DNA of 64,000 nucleotides from Acidimicrobiaceae bacterium (GTDB lineage Bacteria; Actinomycetota; Acidimicrobiia; Acidimicrobiales; Ilumatobacteraceae), in the NCBI GenBank assembly GCA_003569125.1, contig BGOG01000001.1, positions 1 through 64,000 of the forward strand. The letters run 5' to 3'. Positions 9,627-19,529 of the stretch are shown one piece after another. The stretch's first letter is position 1. The number at the start of each line of letters is the position of its first letter. The position numbers and the translations under genes are program-made. The notes below the pieces were generated by a model. It did not search any database. It had not been told where the DNA came from and was given only the letters and a program-made list of their open reading frames with translations.

Positions 9627-12593
9627 TCAGCCACCAATTAAAGAAATTGCCTTGCTTATTAAACTTCGGGCTTCAGCAAGTTTCTGCTGATACAGCGTGA
9701 AGTCAGGTGGAGTGCTGCCAAGAGCCGCGTCGGCTTGCGCAAACAGTTCTTCGGCTTTTGCGAGCAGCGCACTCGGAGTGTCTAATGCTGTGTCGCCGCT
9801 CGTACTAGAAGGCACGGTTGTATCAGTCGTAGTGGTCCCATCGGTTGATGCGCCACCGGTTGCGGTGTCATCAGTTGGTATGGCTGAACCATCATCAATT
9901 CTGTCGCCGAGATTGTCTTTGAAGCCCGGAAATAGTCTGGCAATCGCTGTAGTCAGATCATCCGCGAGCACGACTTTATTGTTGTATGACGCGAGAAATT
10001 TTCTGACAAATATTTGTTTTGCCGATGGATCATCGGGCCGCACAAATAACGGACGAACGTAGACGAGACCCTTTCCGACACTGACAATTTGCAAGTCACC
10101 GAAAATTACCCGAGAGCCTCTTTGGTCGAGCAAGGTGATCTGTTGAGAAACAACTGGGTCGCTACCAATTTCTGCTGCAACCGTTGCTGGTCCTTCCGGC
10201 AACGGATCATTAATTTTGAAAACCGTCAGTTGCCCGTATGTCGCAGGCTCGCTCGAAACGACCATGAACGCGCGTAGTTCTTTTCGGGCGTTGTCAGAAG
10301 AAAACGGCACAAACGGACGCAACATTGAAAACACGCCTGTTTTTTGTGCACTTCCTGGCGCATGAAACATCGTGTAGTACGGCTCGAATCGCGCCACGCT
10401 GGCGTCACGAACATCGCCGGTATTAACTGAATTCAAGTCATTAACTAGTCCGCCCGACACTGCGCCTGTTAAACCTTCAGGCTCAATTGCAGGTGCTTGT
10501 GCAACGCTCCATGCAGCATTGCGATTGAAAAACATTGTTGCATCGCTGAACTGATAACGACCATAAGTGTTCGTTTGCACCCTGAATAAATCTTCCGGGT
10601 ATCTGAAGTGTTCAACGAGTTGCTTTGGAGCGAGTGAAACCGAAGTAAATAATTTTGGAAATATAGATTGCCATGTGGCAATCACGGGATCTTTTTGATC
10701 TACGACATAAAACTTCATTGATCCGTCATAGGCATCAACCACAACTTTCACGCTGTTGCGAACATAATTAAAGTCCGTGTTGAGTCCGCTTCCAAAAGTC
10801 AGTTGATCAATGTTTGCTCGTTGCGCATATGGATAACGATCTGTTGTCGTAAATGCATCCAACACCCACATGACTTTTCCGTCGACCACGACCGGGTATG
10901 GGTCGGCATCCATTTTTAAGAACGGTGCAATTTTTTCTGCTCGCTCACGAACGTTTCGAAAAAACATAATCTGAGATTGCGATGTGATCAAACCCGATCC
11001 AACGAGGTTGTACTCGCCAAAATGCACGGCGAATGCGGCGCGCCGAACAAAGGACGAAAGTTGCACACCACCGATTCCTGAGAATGCACCGGCTTTAGTA
11101 TCCGAACAAGACTGTTCTACTTCACGACTATTTACCAGTGCATACGAATCAAGACCTTCGCCGAAATACAACTCGGGTCTTTTCACATCAAGGTTTGTAT
11201 AAATTGGTCGACCATCAACGGTCACTCTGCTTGCCGGCGCGACAACCAGCCCGCAACCGTGTGTGTAGAGAAGGTGTCGCGAAACCCAAGTGCGGTTTGG
11301 GATTCCGTCGGTGTTCAACTCACGGGCGCCAACCAAAACTTGTTGAGTTCGGCCATCTAGCGCATAGCGGTCAACGTCTAGATCACGAATCGCATAATAA
11401 GAAGTCTGTCCTTCATCCAAAACGAATCGGTCGCGCATCTGCAACGGGTCAAGTTGTCGAACATCGCGTAACGGTTCAACATCTGCAGTGACATCTGCTG
11501 CATTTATCGAGCCAAAATTGACATCAACTTGTTTGACATCACTCAGACCCATTGCGTTTTTTGTCGCGATCAAGTTGCGTTCAATATAAGGAAGTTCTTT
11601 GGTACTGACATTGGGCTGCACCGAGAAGCGTTGCACGAGAGATGGGTAAATTGTGCCTGCCACGAGTGCGACGACGATCCAAAGCATTGTTGCCAGAACG
11701 GGCAAGCGCCATCCTTTTTGCAATACATTCCATAAAAATAATGCCGCCACCGCGAGAGACACCAGAATCATCAAACTTGTTGCCGGAAGTTGTGCTGTTA
11801 CATCTGTGTAGGTTGCGCCCTGAACCACGCCACGGGTCGATCGAGTCAATTCAAAACGACCGTACCAATACGATGCTGCGCGCGACATCGCGATCAGAGC
11901 GAACAATACCGACAAGTGGGCTTTTGCTTGTGGTGTAACTCGACGACCTTGCGCTTGCATTTGAATAGAACCATTTAGATAGTGGATCATCGTTGTTACG
12001 AGCGTGATCAGAACGAGAGCAGCCAACGACCAACCAACCAAAAATTCAAGGAAAGGTAGACGAAAAATATAGAAACTTAAATCGCGAGCAAACAGCGGAT
12101 CATTGATGCCGAATTGTTGGGCATGACGAAATAGTTGCCAATCTTGCCATTGCGCACTCGTTGGCAATCCAACTAGAAGTCCGAGCACCACAGAAATCAC
12201 GATGCGAACAAGCCATTGGCGTTTTGCGATTAACTGCCGATAACCCGCAAGTGCTCTCTGTTCTGCCGACACCGGCACATTTTCTGGCGCAAGGCGATCG
12301 GCGATCCACAGATTGATCAACATCGCCAACGTGAAGACCACTACGAAAATCGCGGCGAGAGAAATTTTCGTGGTGATTACACCCCAGAAAATATCTGTGC
12401 GGCCCAACACATCGTGCCACAGCAAGTCAACATAAAAACCAGAAATGCTTCGAGCTGAAATTCCACCGACGACAAAAATTGCAAAAACAATCGTCCAGAT
12501 TGCTCGACCCTTTTTAAACGCGTTGAATCCGAAGCCACCACCAGATGCACCACGAGGGCGAGGTGATCTAGGTAAGTCGGAGGGGTTCCGCAC
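9627..12593 (-). CDS. UPF0182-family large membrane protein
   Basis: A 988-residue protein of the UPF0182 family, common in actinobacteria and cyanobacteria and of unknown biochemical function. The first third holds about seven membrane helices (near residues 32-52, 75-97, 130-150, 185-210, 235-250, 280-300 and 310-330), followed by a large region expected outside the membrane with segments typical of the family such as YIERNLIATKNAMGL and YGRYQFSDATMFFNRN. The tail carries a low-complexity Thr/Ser/Asp linker and a short final helical segment. It starts only 10 bases after the stop of the DivIVA-type gene, so the two are probably co-transcribed. That linkage to a polar-growth factor is the only functional hint. 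Confidence 0.9.
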   Translation of the reverse strand: MRNPSDLPRSPRPRGASGGGFGFNAFKKGRAIWTIVFAIFVVGGISARSISGFYVDLLWHDVLGRTDIFWGVITTKISLAAIFVVVFTLAMLINLWIADRLAPENVPVSAEQRALAGYRQLIAKRQWLVRIVISVVLGLLVGLPTSAQWQDWQLFRHAQQFGINDPLFARDLSFYIFRLPFLEFLVGWSLAALVLITLVTTMIHYLNGSIQMQAQGRRVTPQAKAHLSVLFALIAMSRAASYWYGRFELTRSTRGVVQGATYTDVTAQLPATSLMILVSLAVAALFLWNVLQKGWRLPVLATMLWIVVALVAGTIYPSLVQRFSVQPNVSTKELPYIERNLIATKNAMGLSDVKQVDVNFGSINAADVTADVEPLRDVRQLDPLQMRDRFVLDEGQTSYYAIRDLDVDRYALDGRTQQVLVGARELNTDGIPNRTWVSRHLLYTHGCGLVVAPASRVTVDGRPIYTNLDVKRPELYFGEGLDSYALVNSREVEQSCSDTKAGAFSGIGGVQLSSFVRRAAFAVHFGEYNLVGSGLITSQSQIMFFRNVRERAEKIAPFLKMDADPYPVVVDGKVMWVLDAFTTTDRYPYAQRANIDQLTFGSGLNTDFNYVRNSVKVVVDAYDGSMKFYVVDQKDPVIATWQSIFPKLFTSVSLAPKQLVEHFRYPEDLFRVQTNTYGRYQFSDATMFFNRNAAWSVAQAPAIEPEGLTGAVSGGLVNDLNSVNTGDVRDASVARFEPYYTMFHAPGSAQKTGVFSMLRPFVPFSSDNARKELRAFMVVSSEPATYGQLTVFKINDPLPEGPATVAAEIGSDPVVSQQITLLDQRGSRVIFGDLQIVSVGKGLVYVRPLFVRPDDPSAKQIFVRKFLASYNNKVVLADDLTTAIARLFPGFKDNLGDRIDDGSAIPTDDTATGGASTDGTTTTDTTVPSSTSGDTALDTPSALLAKAEELFAQADAALGSTPPDFTLYQQKLAEARSLISKAISLIGG

Positions 12594-12603
12594 GAAGCAA
12601 AGA

Positions 12604-14692
12604 CTAGCGGGGGGTTGGAACTACAAGACAACGACATCCCGAGTGAACGACAGGATGTTCGTGCCCAGTAGGAAAATTTTCACCAAGTGAAATTGTGCCC
12701 GCGAGTGAATTATCTTCAGCGTCCGAACATGCAGGACCATCGGGATCAACCATCCAACAGACCTTTGTACCCGCATCAAGAACAAGATACGCACCTCGAC
12801 TGTAAGCCAGACGAGCGATATCACTCACGAGTTTGTCTATCTGCTGCATTTTCCATTCGCGATAAACGGTGCGAATCAAACTTGACATCTCGCTGCTGTC
12901 TCCCGCGCTTTTCTCGACGCATTTCTGAATTCGAGTTCGCAACGGAAGCACGATCGTATCAGCGAGTTTTTTCGACATAACTTGCATCACGGTTGTGTTG
13001 CTAATTTTTTTTCTGAGGTCGGCTTTAAGACTTTTAGTCAGCGATTGTGCACCAGCCATTGCGGCTTCAATCAAATCTTTGTTTGTGGCTTCAACAAACG
13101 ATTGAACTTGACTATCAAAACTTGGCATAACCGTCTCTAGTGCGACTTGAGCTTTTTTATTCTGCAAGTAGTTGAGAGCCGAGTTCTCTTCGTCAGCCAG
13201 AACACGCTTGAGTTTTTTAGAGAGTGCTTCGATTATCGGGGCGAGTGCGTCATCTCGCTTGGTAAAAATTTTCAGATCAGGTTTCGCCGAAACTGATGCC
13301 GGATCAAAAGTTGTACTAGCTGTACTAGCTGTACTCGACGACACATTCGACTTGGTCACTTTTTTGTGAACTGGCTCGATTTTTTTAATTGAACCAGCGA
13401 CTGAGCTCGCACCCGCCTGGCGTAATTTGGCGAATAGATCATCTACATTCGATTTTTTGGGCTCAACAACTGGATCTTTTGTCGGGGCTTGATCAGTTGC
13501 CGCTGGCGCTGCTGTTACTGCTGGCGCTGCTGTTACTGCTGCGCTGCTGTTACTGCTGGCGCTTCAAGCGTCTCTGAGACTTCTGTTGCTTCTGCTACCG
13601 GTGCATCAGTTGAAGGGTGCAATCGACGTGAAGTTCTGCCAAATAACTGAATGACATTCGCCCGATGACCTTCTTCTGGTTCCGACTTCACTTCTGTTTT
13701 AACTTCCGGTTTAACTTCTACTTTGATTTTTCTGGCTTCACTTCAGGTTTCACTTCTAGTTTGACTTCTGGCTTGGGTGTCACTGGCTGCGGCACGACTT
13801 CAATTTTGATTGGGGTTTCACTCGGCGCCGTCAGAAATGATTCTTCATCAGTTTGCGCGAACAACTCATCGTTCTCAATTTCTAGAACTTGCTCAACCCG
13901 ATGATTAGATTCATGGCCAGGTAACTTCGCAACATCTGGACGCACGTTTTCTAAAGTATCGTCTTCGTATTTTTCACGATCAAAAAGAACAACGTTCTGA
14001 AAAGATTGATCCACGACTCCCTCGGGCACGGCTCGTGCTAAATCTCCTGCCGCATCGTCGAATTCAGTCAAGTCACCCATCACATCATTGGCCGCCAAGC
14101 GTGCGCGTTCAAAAGCCGACATCAACCGATCGCGATCACGAACTAATTGTTCTATTTGTTGTTTCGCGAGTTCGCGACGCCGCGCAAGTTCGGTCAGCAT
14201 TTTTTCTTTGTACGCGCGAGCTTCATTTATCATTTCGCGACCTTGCTGTTTAGCAAGTTCTATTTCAGATTCGCTGTCATCTAGAGCATCGCTTCGCCTA
14301 CGCTCATTTTCGATTTCGGCTTCTTCGCGCAACCGTGCAACCTCAGAGGTTGCTTCTCGCACCAATCTCTCGGCCGTTTCAGCCCCACGCATTCGCATTT
14401 GTTGTGCTGCTTCGCGAGCAACAGATAAAACACGGGCCGTCTCTTCACCCAGCAGCGACGTGACCGTTGCTTCATCGAGCACACCAGGATCAGACAAACC
14501 GCGAGTTTGCATCGCGCGCATTTCACTTTCTAAAAATCTTTCTCGCTCTTGAAGTCTGGCCAACTCGGCCGAGACCATCCTCAAAAAGTCACGAACTTCA
14601 CCTTGGTCGTAGCCACGCCTCGCGATGTTGAATTGTGCTGACCCAACCGCACCAGGGGATGAAGGGTCAGGGCGCGAGAATGAAATCGCCAT
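12604..14692 (-). CDS. DivIVA-domain protein fused to a phage gp7/MuF-like Cys-His domain, split by two indels
   Basis: Three adjacent reading frames form one gene. Frame 1 (from 14692) carries an N-terminal DivIVA domain (RRGYDQGEVRDFLRMVSAELARLQ near residue 30) and a long coiled coil. A base is missing in the T run at 13727-13731, after which a Lys/Glu/Val-Pro linker, VIQLFGRTS and an Ala-Val-Thr repeat follow. A second base is missing at 13541, after which VDDLFAKLRQAG leads into a helical domain ending in paired Cys, HEH and HSGCRC motifs. Restoring two bases gives exactly 697 codons. DivIVA recruits wall synthesis to poles; the C-terminal Cys/His pattern resembles phage minor head (SPP1 gp7, Mu F) C-termini. 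It follows the PDZ protease by 21 bases. Single-gene status is well supported; the domain comparison is by eye. Confidence 0.75.
13312..13338. repeat. three tandem 9-bp units inside the DivIVA-fusion gene
   Basis: Three consecutive copies of a 9-base unit (tgtactagc, tgtactagc, tgtactcga) encode a Ser-Thr-Ala repeat in the linker before the C-terminal domain. The unit length keeps the frame open. It marks a flexible linker and a possible slippage site. Confidence 0.85.
13505..13557. repeat. three tandem 18-bp units, the last one base short
   Basis: Two perfect 18-base copies (13505-13522 and 13523-13540) are followed by a 17-base copy lacking one G at 13541. On the minus strand each encodes Ala-Val-Thr-Ala-Ala-Pro. 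The missing base causes the second frameshift of the DivIVA-fusion gene, and restoring it joins the two frames. Confidence 0.9.
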
Positions 14693-14713: not shown

Positions 14714-15901
14714 TTAGAGCTCTATCGCGTCATTAGAAATGTCGCTGCCCCCCATCTCTTTGAGGATTGCCAGCGCTTCGCCAAGATTTGCAACAGGAGC
14801 GATGCGCAGTTTTGATCCTGCAACTCGTCTTGCAGCATCAATTTCTTCTGCTGATTGCGAACTCGGCACGAAAAATACTTTGGCACCAGAGGCCTTGACT
14901 GCGACTGTTTTCTGACGCAACGCACCAATCGCACCAACTGTTTCATCACCATCAATCGTGCCCGTCGCGGCTACTTTTACTCCGCCTGTCAAGTTGCCGG
15001 GAGTCAATTCATCGAGTAACGCCAATGTGAATGCGAGACCGGCGGATGGTCCACCAATCAGATCTGTATCGATATCGACCTCGAATGGCAACCGAACAAT
15101 TCGCGTGTCTGCTGGCCACACGCCAATAATTGTGCGATTTGGATCATCTGGACTGGCGATCAGCTCAACTTCTTTGGTGATTGACTCAAGAGATTTTTGT
15201 GGCGTAATTTTTAGTTTAACAACATCACCTGGTTTATAATTTTTCATCAGTGGAAGTAAGTCAGCCAAAGTTGGAATCTCAATTCCATCAAAAGAAGTAA
15301 TAGCGTCGCCGACTGCGAGTTGTAAACACGCGCTCAATGGACGGGGCTTGGCCTCACATACGAATCGATCAATAATTAATTCTCCGTAACTAATTGACGC
15401 CTCATATCCCAGACGACGCAACGCGACATATTCAGCAATTTGTTTTGCCGTAATCATCGACTTGAACCCGACGGCTCTTTGTTGATCTGGAGTCGCAGTG
15501 CCGAATTTCTGGAGTCGATTCAATACATCTACATCCGGATCTAGCGTGCCGAGCAACGCATCAAAAGCCGAAAGTTTTGATCCATACGCGGTGACGAATA
15601 AAACCGGTGTGGTCGGTTTATATTGATCGGCAAGTTGCAGGGCATCCTTATCAAACGAAAATCTTGAGCTAACTTGCTCTGCTGAACCTGGTGCAACTTC
15701 CCAATAGTCGACACGAACCAACGAAGAAATAATTATCGCGCCAGTTATCAACCAAACAACCGTGAAGATTGGTATCGCCCACCACATGTTTCTCTGACGC
15801 GGTGCAATAACTATTTGAGGCACGTCGTGATGCGCGTCTTGCTGCTGTTGGTCCATCTCTGGCGATACGCTAGAAGAAGTCGTGGTTGTGTCGATATTCA
15901 T
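14714..15901 (-). CDS. PDZ-domain Lon-type (S16) membrane protease
   Basis: A 395-residue membrane-anchored protease of the type widespread in actinobacteria and Bacillus (YlbL-like). A Thr/Ser/Gln-rich cytoplasmic head is followed by one membrane helix near residues 40-62, an extracellular region, a PDZ domain near residues 190-260 (LAVGDAITSFDGIEIPT), and a C-terminal Lon proteolytic domain. The catalytic serine is in GGPSAGLAF and the lysine in GALRQKTVAVKASGA. I chose the ATG at 15901 (MNIDTT); it overlaps the start codon of the divergent small membrane protein. An ATG at 15855 (MDQQQQ) is an alternative that removes this clash. It leads the block with the DivIVA fusion and UPF0182. Confidence 0.9.
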   Translation of the reverse strand: MNIDTTTTSSSVSPEMDQQQQDAHHDVPQIVIAPRQRNMWWAIPIFTVVWLITGAIIISSLVRVDYWEVAPGSAEQVSSRFSFDKDALQLADQYKPTTPVLFVTAYGSKLSAFDALLGTLDPDVDVLNRLQKFGTATPDQQRAVGFKSMITAKQIAEYVALRRLGYEASISYGELIIDRFVCEAKPRPLSACLQLAVGDAITSFDGIEIPTLADLLPLMKNYKPGDVVKLKITPQKSLESITKEVELIASPDDPNRTIIGVWPADTRIVRLPFEVDIDTDLIGGPSAGLAFTLALLDELTPGNLTGGVKVAATGTIDGDETVGAIGALRQKTVAVKASGAKVFFVPSSQSAEEIDAARRVAGSKLRIAPVANLGEALAILKEMGGSDISNDAIEL

Positions 15902-16193
15902 GTCACTCACCGTCTTTGATGTTACGGTCAGGTCTACTGCAATCATCGTGCTGAGCCTGATTATCCTGTGGTTGGTAACAAAAAATCGAGCTACCGAAGT
16001 GACTAGATCGCGTGTCGTCAAAGTGCAGAGTCAAGACTCCAATTTATCCGCGCCGTCAAAAAATACTTGGAATACCAGATCAGTTGGTGCGCTTGGCATC
16101 ACTAGCATCTTCTCTGGAGTCGTTTTAGCAGTTTTCATTTCGGTGATATTGGCAGTTTTGATCTCCAAACTGACCGGATCAATAGGTCAATAG
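15900..16193 (+). CDS. small membrane protein, unknown function
   Basis: I do not recognise this 97-residue protein. It has two hydrophobic segments (about residues 12-27 and 68-92) separated by a basic, Ser-rich loop, so it is probably a two-helix membrane protein. The ATG at 15900 overlaps the start codon of the divergent PDZ protease; an upstream GTG/ATG at 15882 is also possible. It stops three bases before legB, so it is probably the first gene of the legionaminic transcript and may have a part in membrane positioning of the pathway, but nothing in its sequence shows this. Confidence 0.5.
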   Translation: MSLTVFDVTVRSTAIIVLSLIILWLVTKNRATEVTRSRVVKVQSQDSNLSAPSKNTWNTRSVGALGITSIFSGVVLAVFISVILAVLISKLTGSIGQ

Positions 16194-16196
16194 CAA

Positions 16197-17189
16197 ATGA
16201 AAATTCTCGTAACTGGCGCGGATGGTTTTATCGGCTCGCATTTGGTCGAAGCACTCATTAAACGCGGACATCAAGTTCGCGCATTCGTGCTTTATAACTC
16301 GTTTAATTCTTGGGGTTGGCTCGACGATGCAACTCAGTCAGTTCGCGACAGCCTCGATGTTTTCGCCGGAGATATTCGTGACCCACACGGTGTTGATGCC
16401 GCAGTGTCTGGCCAAGATGTAATTTTGAACCTCGCGGCGTTGATCGCGATCCCCTATTCGTATCATTCGCCCGACACTTATATCGACACCAACATCAAGG
16501 GCACGCTGAATATCTTGCAGGCTGCACGTCGGCACAATGTGAAACGAATCGTGCAAACTTCGACAAGTGAGGTTTACGGCACCGCGCAATATATTCCAAT
16601 TGATGAGAAGCACCCTTTACATCCACAGTCACCTTATGCGGCATCCAAAGTCGGCGCCGATCAACTTGCTTTAAGTTTTCATGCTTCGTTTGATTTGCCG
16701 GTCGGAATTCTTCGACCGTTCAATACTTACGGGCCAAGACAATCTGCGCGGGCGGTTATTCCAACAATTATCAGTCAACTCGCGACGAACCGAGAAGTAA
16801 AACTCGGCGCACTTTCGCCGACGCGCGACTTCACGTTTGTCGAAGACACGGCATCTGGCTTCATCGCTGCTGCCGAGAGCGATGCGATTGTTGGCGAAAC
16901 AATTAATTTAGGTAGCGGTTTCGAAATCTCCATCGAAGATACAGCCAAGACAATCGCCGAAATTATGGGCGTCGATCTGAAACTCTCAAACGACAAACAG
17001 CGTGATCGACCAAAAAATTCTGAGGTCGAGAGACTGCATGCTTCAATTGAAAAAGCCGAAAAACTTCTCAAATGGAAGCCATCATTGAATGGTGCCGAAG
17101 GTTTCAAAATCGGCTTGAAGCGTACGATTGATTGGTTTTCAGACTCGAATAATTTGTCGCGCTACAAGGCAGATCGGTACAACATTTAA
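16197..17189 (+). CDS. legB: LegB-like NDP-sugar 4,6-dehydratase
   Basis: An extended short-chain dehydrogenase/reductase of 330 residues. It has the GADGFIGSHL nucleotide motif at residues 7-16, the TSTSEVYG catalytic serine/threonine region and the YAASK catalytic pair near residue 148. The GILRPFNTYGPRQSARAVIPTI stretch is typical of LegB, the 4,6-dehydratase acting on a GDP- or UDP-linked N-acetylglucosamine, the first committed step to legionaminic acid. legC follows five bases later. In Campylobacter the substrate is the GDP-linked sugar made by PtmE, and ptmE is present here at 21253-22302. Confidence 0.9.
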   Translation: MKILVTGADGFIGSHLVEALIKRGHQVRAFVLYNSFNSWGWLDDATQSVRDSLDVFAGDIRDPHGVDAAVSGQDVILNLAALIAIPYSYHSPDTYIDTNIKGTLNILQAARRHNVKRIVQTSTSEVYGTAQYIPIDEKHPLHPQSPYAASKVGADQLALSFHASFDLPVGILRPFNTYGPRQSARAVIPTIISQLATNREVKLGALSPTRDFTFVEDTASGFIAAAESDAIVGETINLGSGFEISIEDTAKTIAEIMGVDLKLSNDKQRDRPKNSEVERLHASIEKAEKLLKWKPSLNGAEGFKIGLKRTIDWFSDSNNLSRYKADRYNI

Positions 17190-17193
17190 TTAG

Positions 17194-18372
17194 ATGACGA
17201 CTTACGATCTACCGACACGCGAATTTCTTGAAGTACTAACTTCTGTGTTGGGTCCAGCCGAAAAATCAACGATTGCCCTGCACGAACCAAACATTGGCGA
17301 CCATGAGCACAAAATGGTTGCCGAGTGCTTGTCATCTGGTTGGGTTTCGTCAGTTGGTGAGTTCATCACCCGTTTCGAAAATCAACTTTCAAAAATCACT
17401 GGTGCTAAACATGTAATCGCGGTTGTCAACGGCACTTGCGCGCTTCATCTTGCGTTGCACTCGGTGGGCATCAATCCTGGTGACGAAGTTATTATCCCAT
17501 CACTAAGTTTTGTCGCTACCGCCAACGCAGTCGCGCATTGTGGCGCCATCCCACATTTTGCTGACAGTGACTTGACGACTCTCGGTTTGGATCCAACTGC
17601 TTTGCGAAAGCACCTCGGGTCAGTAGCAACCAGGCGAGGTGACGATCTGATTAACACAAAAACGGGTCGGCGAATCGGTGCGATTGTGCCGATGCATACT
17701 TTTGGCCACCCAATGCAGATTGACGAACTTATTTTGGTTGCCAAAGAGTTCGGCTTACCGATTGTTGAAGATGCAGCCGAGTCACTCGGAAGTTGTGTTG
17801 GTAAAAAACACACTGGAACATTTGGTCGTTGCGGAATCTTGAGTTTTAACGGCAATAAGACGATCACAACTGGCGGTGGCGGAGCGATTCTGACCGATGA
17901 CGAATCGCTCGCCAAAAAAATTCGTCATCTTGCTACGACCGCAAAACTCGCACACGATTGGGAGTTCCTGCATGATCAAACTGCTTTCAACTATCGCATG
18001 CCAAATCTAAATGCCGCCCTTGGATGCGCTCAACTAGATCGACTTGACGAATTTTTGAGGCACAAACGAAATCTCGCCAATAAATACGACAAGGCTTTAC
18101 AAAATTCGGGGTCTTTTGAATTTGTCGGCGAACCAAAAGGAACTACCTCCAATTATTGGCTGAACACTTTTCGGCTGACGAATCCAAACTTGGCAATGCG
18201 TAACGAGTTGCTCACCGCTTCACGAGCGAAAGGTTATTTATGTCGTCCCGCATGGAACCTGCTGCACCAACTTCCGATGTATGAAAACTCACCCCGCGCA
18301 GAATTACCGGTCGCACAAATACTCCTGAGTTCTCTGATCAATGTGCCAAGTAGCGCAAACTTAGGATCATGA
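17194..18372 (+). CDS. legC: LegC-like sugar aminotransferase
   Basis: A PLP-dependent DegT-family aminotransferase of 392 residues which would aminate the 4-keto group of the LegB product. Characteristic LegC features are the N-terminal IALHEPNIGDHE segment, VNGTCALHLAL near residue 80, the PMHTFGHP segment, EDAAESLGS, and the aldimine lysine in FNGNKTITTGGGGAI near residue 220. Length and ending are normal. The stop overlaps the start of legG (ATGA), indicating translational coupling. Confidence 0.92.
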   Translation: MTTYDLPTREFLEVLTSVLGPAEKSTIALHEPNIGDHEHKMVAECLSSGWVSSVGEFITRFENQLSKITGAKHVIAVVNGTCALHLALHSVGINPGDEVIIPSLSFVATANAVAHCGAIPHFADSDLTTLGLDPTALRKHLGSVATRRGDDLINTKTGRRIGAIVPMHTFGHPMQIDELILVAKEFGLPIVEDAAESLGSCVGKKHTGTFGRCGILSFNGNKTITTGGGGAILTDDESLAKKIRHLATTAKLAHDWEFLHDQTAFNYRMPNLNAALGCAQLDRLDEFLRHKRNLANKYDKALQNSGSFEFVGEPKGTTSNYWLNTFRLTNPNLAMRNELLTASRAKGYLCRPAWNLLHQLPMYENSPRAELPVAQILLSSLINVPSSANLGS

Positions 18373-19529
18373 GTTCAAATCGAAAAATCTGCGTAGTTAC
18401 CGGAACCCGAGCCGAGTACGGACTGCTCGCGCCGCTGATGGCTTTGCTCAAGCAAGATCCGGAAATAGATTTTCAACTTGTCGTCACCGGATCACATTTA
18501 TCTGCACAGCACGGTTCAACGATCAAACTTATTGAGCAAGACGGGTTTGTCGCCGATGCGTTGGTTGATATTGGACTTTCTGATGATTCGGTTCTTGAAA
18601 TCGCCCACGCCCTGGGTCGGGCAACATCGCAACTTGCCGATGCTTTCGCAAAACTCAAACCAGACCTCCTAGTCGTATTAGGCGACAGATACGAAATTCT
18701 TGGTGCAGCCCAGGCGGCACTGATTTTGGGTATTCCGATCGCACATATTCATGGAGGCGAAGTAACCACGGGCGCCTTTGACGACAGCATCCGACACGCA
18801 ATCACAAAAATGTCGAATCTTCACTTTTGTGCGGCAGAAGATTATCAACGCAGGTTGATCCAACTTGGTGAATCGCCGAACACGGTTTTTAATGTTGGAG
18901 CACTCGGAGTTGACGTCTTGCTGAATCTCGAGCAGATATCACGAGACGACTTGGCATCCGTAATCGGTATTGAAATTCAAAAAGAATTATTGCTGGTAAC
19001 TGTTCACCCAACTACTCGAAGCGAAATGTCGATGACTGCAGAAATCAGCGAGTTACTCACGGCGCTTGAGCAATTCGCTAAGGCAACAATTGTGTTTACA
19101 GGTGTTAATGCCGACCCTGGACACAAATATATGAATGATCAGATAACCAAATTTGTATTACGCGAACCGAAGCGACGAGTTTTGCATAATTCACTCGGCC
19201 AAAAAAATTATCTCAACTTAATGAAAATTGCCGACGTGGTTATCGGAAACTCTTCGAGTGGAATCATCGAGGCTCCTGCGCTTCATGTGCCGACCGTAAA
19301 TATCGGCACACGACAAGATGGTCGACTTCGCGCAGATTCAATTATTGATTGCAAGTTCGGTCACGACGAAATTCGTACCGCGATCGAGAAAGCGCTTTCA
19401 CCCTCATGGAAGTCGCGATGTCTTGCGACCACGAGCAAATACGGCTCTGGCGACACGGCAAAAAGCATCGCCGATACGCTGAAAAACACGAAACTGACGA
19501 CTCAAAAAATATTCTGCGACATTCTTTGA
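18369..19529 (+). CDS. legG: LegG/NeuC-like hydrolysing NDP-sugar 2-epimerase
   Basis: A GT-B fold UDP-N-acetylglucosamine 2-epimerase family member of 386 residues that releases the free 2-epimerised sugar from its nucleotide. The N-terminus reads CVVTGTRAEYGLLAPLM, and the motifs VLGDRYEIL, HIHGGEVTTGAFDDSIRHAITKMS and the C-terminal IGNSSSGIIEAP are those of the hydrolysing NeuC/LegG group. In the legionaminic pathway it gives 2,4-diacetamido-2,4,6-trideoxymannose for the synthase LegI. Its last base overlaps the first base of legI (TGATG). Confidence 0.92.
   Translation: MSSNRKICVVTGTRAEYGLLAPLMALLKQDPEIDFQLVVTGSHLSAQHGSTIKLIEQDGFVADALVDIGLSDDSVLEIAHALGRATSQLADAFAKLKPDLLVVLGDRYEILGAAQAALILGIPIAHIHGGEVTTGAFDDSIRHAITKMSNLHFCAAEDYQRRLIQLGESPNTVFNVGALGVDVLLNLEQISRDDLASVIGIEIQKELLLVTVHPTTRSEMSMTAEISELLTALEQFAKATIVFTGVNADPGHKYMNDQITKFVLREPKRRVLHNSLGQKNYLNLMKIADVVIGNSSSGIIEAPALHVPTVNIGTRQDGRLRADSIIDCKFGHDEIRTAIEKALSPSWKSRCLATTSKYGSGDTAKSIADTLKNTKLTTQKIFCDIL

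Follow-up and report, generated by a model that had tools for sequence, protein, structure and literature searches.

DivIVA proteins mark the pole and the division site of the cell. To our knowledge, MuF proteins have been described as phage or prophage proteins whose function is unknown or related to the head, and the widespread UPF0182 family has no known function; we take Rv3193c to be the UPF0182 protein of Mycobacterium tuberculosis. Rv3193c shows a synthetic-sick genetic interaction with the divisome gene rv0954 and is listed together with pbpA, rodA, perM and lamA (PMC8093794). The MuF protein gp7 of phage SPP1 binds the phage portal (PMC5576092), and the Bacillus subtilis protease YlbL degrades the division inhibitor YneA (PMC6051672). 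Here, we report an actinobacterial gene that unites these elements: a DivIVA scaffold carrying a domesticated phage domain, encoded between a YlbL-type protease and a UPF0182 membrane protein. Searches of the literature for DivIVA in combination with MuF, with Acidimicrobiia or with head morphogenesis retrieved no paper on a DivIVA–MuF protein, the last search giving only passing mentions. Throughout a bacterial class and in some related lineages, a chromosomal gene joins DivIVA to MuF and lies, nearly always, directly next to one and the same gene for a membrane protein; this suggests that a building block of viral origin was adopted into the machinery of cell growth or division.

Organization of the locus

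We analysed a window of 64,000 nucleotides from an Acidimicrobiaceae bacterium (contig BGOG01000001.1, positions 1 to 64,000). The product of the scaffold gene (14692-12604, minus strand) begins with a DivIVA domain, which is followed by a coiled coil, a linker rich in repeats and, at the C terminus, a domain of about 225 residues (Table 1). The DivIVA domain of the window protein scores 35.5-36.1 bits against PF05103 (cut-off 28), relatives reach 37-63 bits with the same profile, and the DivI1A motif is matched at 28.1 bits (TIGR03544, cut-off 22). In relatives, the PF05103 and PF04233 matches lie within one open frame (L072 and L055), which bears out an earlier proposal, made from this one sequence, that a DivIVA domain is joined to the C-terminal domain. 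The linker carries the motif VDDLFAKLR, found by a strict pattern in 46 of 85 full-length rows and also kept in L160, a protein without the MuF part.

Table 1 Features of the scaffold gene and its neighbours in the window
Feature	Position	Strand	Remarks
DivIVA domain, coiled coil and start of linker	13718..14692	-	frame 1, up to first break
PF05103 DivIVA match	14306-14641	-	within first frame piece
Linker middle	13541..13724	-	frame 2; TAA at ~13540; 13724-13560 aligns with residues 346-408 of a relative
12-base tandem array (K-P-E-V repeats)	13690..13771	-	TRF; contains first break
18-base tandem array (Ala/Val/Thr repeats)	13502..13563	-	TRF; contains second break
Linker motif VDDLFAKLR, possible docking peptide	13420..13446	-	kept in many relatives
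MuF/gp7-like C-terminal domain	12604..13359	-	frame 3; profile match 12610-13290; frame open from 13563
MuF signature W202...C211...D216 N217...G221...P230 T231 G232...H239..C242-R-C244, presumed metal site	12628..12756	-	
PDZ-Lon protease, upstream neighbour	14714..16021	-	TM + PDZ + Lon_C, no ATPase (YlbL type)
UPF0182 multi-pass membrane protein, downstream neighbour	9627..12593	-	10 bases past scaffold stop

In the window, the gene is divided into three frame pieces, the third of which runs for 319 codons without a stop and ends at 12604. An alignment with six relatives showed that the frame changes just twice, near 13725 and near 13541, and that either shift (0 to 2 to 1) corresponds to a single missing base, as had been supposed from the sequence alone; TRF placed both changes inside low-complexity tandem repeats of the linker. 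The remaining genes in the roughly 12-kb stretch shared with relatives are all unbroken. Dozens of relatives carry an intact single frame of about 500-900 codons, and in those whose C-terminal domain is 87-90% identical, the continuous frame spans 697-710 codons. Programmed frameshifting was rejected because the relatives have a single open frame. Compared with the nearest relative, the window copy has a dN/dS of about 0.03 over the first 230 codons (0.018/0.635) and about 0.07 over the last 251 codons (0.058/0.847), and the scaffold gene is thus under strong purifying selection. On these ratios, we read the break in the window either as having arisen very recently or as an error of the assembly. 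That the gene is truly broken, with the DivIVA part as its only product and the downstream open frame as a remnant, we regard as unlikely: the two frame changes do stand in the assembled sequence and a DivIVA-only gene exists in the same slot elsewhere (L160), but a C-terminal part that is 90% identical to a relative, with the low ratio and the long stop-free frame given above, and the position of both breaks in tandem repeats speak against a remnant. A second frame-broken copy, L163:1115-1459 (genome G327, outside the class Acidimicrobiia), has its MuF tail and DivIVA part in different frames.

Both flanking genes that had been noted as co-encoded, for a PDZ protease and a UPF0182 protein, were confirmed, and UPF0182 is the constant neighbour in relatives. 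The protease has its Ser/Lys dyad at PSAG 325 / K371, and the nearest NCBIfam entry is SepM, below its cut-off (100.7 versus 200). UPF0182 has six transmembrane-like stretches and the protease has one, whereas the scaffold lacks any, which fits a scaffold inside the cell and a protease outside it. Beside the module, on the plus strand (16197-19529), lie genes for an NAD-dependent epimerase/dehydratase, a DegT-type aminotransferase and a UDP-GlcNAc 2-epimerase; they resemble genes of sugar synthesis for surface glycans, possibly of nonulosonic acid.

The C-terminal domain resembles phage MuF proteins

The preliminary description had likened the C-terminal domain to gp7/MuF proteins, and we examined this likeness by profile comparison. 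The window protein alone matched phrog_2662 (portal protein; E 6e-5, with the alignment spanning positions 39-248 of its 251 C-terminal residues). In the Pfam search, it did not match PF04233 (Phage_Mu_F), so that there the MuF relation is visible only through relatives. Among 26 diverse relatives (alignment A1), 24 matched PHROG 2662 (portal-MuF; best E 7.5e-15), up to 17 matched further head-morphogenesis and minor-head PHROGs, and 12 matched PF04233 at E ≤ 1 (best 3.5e-5). The curated PF04233 cut-off of 29.6 bits was not reached by the members for which bit scores are available (18.4 and 20.9 bits). An hhalign comparison with 13 MuF proteins from phage contigs gave a probability of 99.5% (E 3.6e-22) over 126 columns, which take in the helices preceding the Cys/His knuckle. 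Since the phage proteins had been chosen for having this signature in common and are not independent of it, the PHROG and Pfam results constitute the independent evidence.

The alignment A1 has eight invariant positions (K51, R52, W202, P230, G232, C242, R243 and C244). Of 94 distinct copies, one cut locus being excluded, 89 have the terminal C-x-C and 83 have H..C-x-C. The signature first read as CW..C..DNSLAG..HEH..HSGCRC is real and occurs order-wide as W-x-C-x-D-x-DN-LAG...FPTGH-x-PPAH-GCRC. As judged by sequence comparison, the C-terminal domain is genuinely related to the MuF/gp7 family of phages, from which it has diverged.

AlphaFold2, supplied with cellular and phage rows, produced a model (pLDDT 76.7, pTM 0.75) that gave 89 matches with E under 0.001 in BFVD, with TM up to 0.75, the best being portal-MuF and head-morphogenesis proteins. 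A control with cellular rows only failed (pLDDT 44.7, pTM 0.21), and the match is thus compatible with a MuF fold and no independent proof of it. Sequence searches of the PDB found no solved MuF relative, and a Foldseek search of the model against the PDB returned nothing under 0.001. The missed Pfam cut-off and the failed control are what could be cited for convergence, in which a helical bundle would have acquired a small Cys/His knuckle with no ancestry shared with MuF. We find this scarcely credible: the hhalign match extends into the helices before the knuckle, PHROG 2662 aligns over most of the window domain and reaches very low E values in relatives, and several independent head-morphogenesis PHROGs match.

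The architecture varies in a few copies. Five (L071, L162, L140, L141 and L142, from four genomes, G030, G418, G189 and G226) lack the Cys/His tail, ending cleanly just before it with the helical part retained, and represent repeated loss of a putative metal site. In genome G046 (L160/L167), a DivIVA gene between PDZ-Lon and UPF0182 ends soon after LFARIRA and has no MuF domain. Together, the five tail-less copies and the MuF-less L160 indicate that the tail is not essential everywhere. In L123 and L124 (genomes G149 and G227), a MuF protein precedes UPF0182, the DivIVA core motif is lost and only a coiled coil remains at the N terminus.

Distribution and descent

The gene proved far older and more widespread than the single-sequence view could show. 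Among 396 actinobacterial genomes sampled over the phylum, the C-terminal domain occurs in 71, of which 55 are in the class of the window, Acidimicrobiia, and 16 outside it. Lineages outside the class that have it include part of the families in the class to which G149 belongs (8 of 24 genomes there). Within Acidimicrobiia, 232 of 296 genomes have the scaffold gene. UPF0182 directly adjoins it in every locus with enough flank read; most loci of the class have PDZ-Lon upstream, although in G049 and G038 it is separated by some kilobases, and in loci outside the class it is not adjacent. The loci of relatives are flanked by PDZ-Lon and UPF0182, with no portal or terminase neighbours seen. A prophage insertion was rejected as an explanation because the gene neighbourhood is constant throughout the class.

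UPF0182 is present in 284 of the 296 genomes. The scaffold is kept in 231 of these (absent in 53) and in only 1 of the 12 genomes without UPF0182 (absent in 11; Fisher 2e-7, uncorrected for kinship). As the scaffold is rare without UPF0182 and UPF0182 is common without the scaffold, the dependence is one-sided, of the scaffold on UPF0182. In genomes G442 and G426, the scaffold is missing and the genes for the protease and UPF0182 are immediate neighbours. Elsewhere than in the window's own family, one to four additional DivIVA proteins occur. In that family, 12 members are at least 90% complete, and 9 of these have a single PF05103 match, which is either the scaffold gene or a piece at a contig end that is consistent with this gene.

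In an unrooted tree of 50 cellular and 13 phage MuF domains, the cellular domains form one side of a branch with support 99; on this phylogenetic evidence, the cellular copies share common descent. Four public MAG records of a freshwater actinobacterial group (L032, L035, L045 and L046) are titled Ferrithrix thermotolerans or Bifidobacterium breve; these titles clash with the close mutual kinship of the four, and the records are probably mislabelled.

This pattern also bears on whether the protein could be an anti-phage decoy, a pole-bound MuF copy that binds the portal proteins of incoming phages and spoils head assembly. Some known defences do act by disturbing the assembly of virions (PMC10884400) and the C-terminal domain is phage-like, but the gene is a single copy conserved across the class in a vertical pattern, with dN/dS under 0.1, and a PADLOC check gave no hit. 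Class-wide conservation, moreover, contrasts with the usually patchy distribution of defence genes, and we consider a decoy very improbable.

Proposed role of the scaffold

On our reading, the protein would be a cytoplasmic, DivIVA-type scaffold whose C terminus is a captured and long-domesticated MuF head domain of the SPP1 gp7 kind. We infer that the DivIVA domain and coiled coil target the negatively curved inner membrane at poles and septum and polymerize there, and that the linker, presumably disordered, provides spacing and, through its LFA(R/K)LR peptide, recruitment. By analogy with gp7 and the portal, the MuF domain may dock a protein of the membrane, for which the co-encoded UPF0182 protein is the likeliest candidate. 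The PDZ-Lon protease would work at this site from the outer face. In this way, the module might link an envelope function to a landmark of the pole or of division, and the scaffold would be the only DivIVA in most members of the window's family.

That the domesticated phage-head domain serves for docking in a scaffold which sits at the pole or septum and organizes UPF0182 has not been shown experimentally, and we advance it as a serious but tentative proposal, about which doubt slightly prevails. We are more hesitant over the evolutionary scenario, which remains possible: a phage MuF domain would have been captured once, early in Actinomycetota, and incorporated into a DivIVA scaffold that forms, together with UPF0182, a core device of the pole or septum; in the streamlined family of the window, this scaffold would have become the sole DivIVA of the cell. 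A role in division or in growth of the envelope is suggested by the constant UPF0182 neighbour, by the YlbL-type protease and by what has been published on these two, an inference for which no contact has been shown; the linkage to UPF0182 can also reflect shared expression instead of contact. The idea of an envelope device, raised in the preliminary description, is accordingly supported in its direction by neighbours and literature, and remains inference without any experiment on location or partner.

The scaffold could instead tether the chromosome, its MuF domain keeping DNA or nucleoprotein binding and anchoring the origin or terminus at the pole. The Lys/Arg-rich first helix of the C-terminal domain, with the invariant K51 and R52, would suit such a role, as would the location of gp7 at the portal, the site of DNA entry. 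There is also a precedent in actinobacteria, where DivIVA anchors the chromosome through ParB, as in corynebacteria. The fixed neighbours, however, are membrane and envelope genes, and loss of the scaffold goes with loss of UPF0182, which leaves a tether decidedly unlikely. Under the preferred reading of a scaffold that organizes UPF0182, a vertically kept cellular MuF domain on a division-site scaffold would give this domain a testable cellular role, the widespread UPF0182 family would gain a likely partner and place, and a structural component of phages would have been made part of the architecture of the cell throughout a class of bacteria.

Comparison with known systems

Like DivIVA and Wag31 (PF05103, NF050102), the scaffold is actinobacterial and has an N-terminal membrane-landmark domain followed by a coiled coil. 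It differs in its additional linker and MuF domain and in its place at PDZ-Lon/UPF0182, and it falls far short of the Wag31 equivalog NF050102 (38 bits versus a cut-off of 260 for the window protein). The upstream protease resembles YlbL of B. subtilis in combining a transmembrane segment, a PDZ domain and a Lon-type Ser/Lys protease without an ATPase. With the MuF superfamily (SPP1 gp7, Mu gpF and portal-MuF fusions), the C-terminal domain shares the W...C..(C)...G...PP.H..CRC signature and the helices that precede it; in contrast to these, it is chromosomal, vertically kept, fused to DivIVA and without a portal or terminase nearby, scores below the Pfam cut-off and forms its own clade in the tree. 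In MuF polymorphic toxins (PMC5576092), as here, MuF is a module of a larger protein, whereas in the scaffold MuF is the last domain, with no toxin domain after it and no immunity gene.
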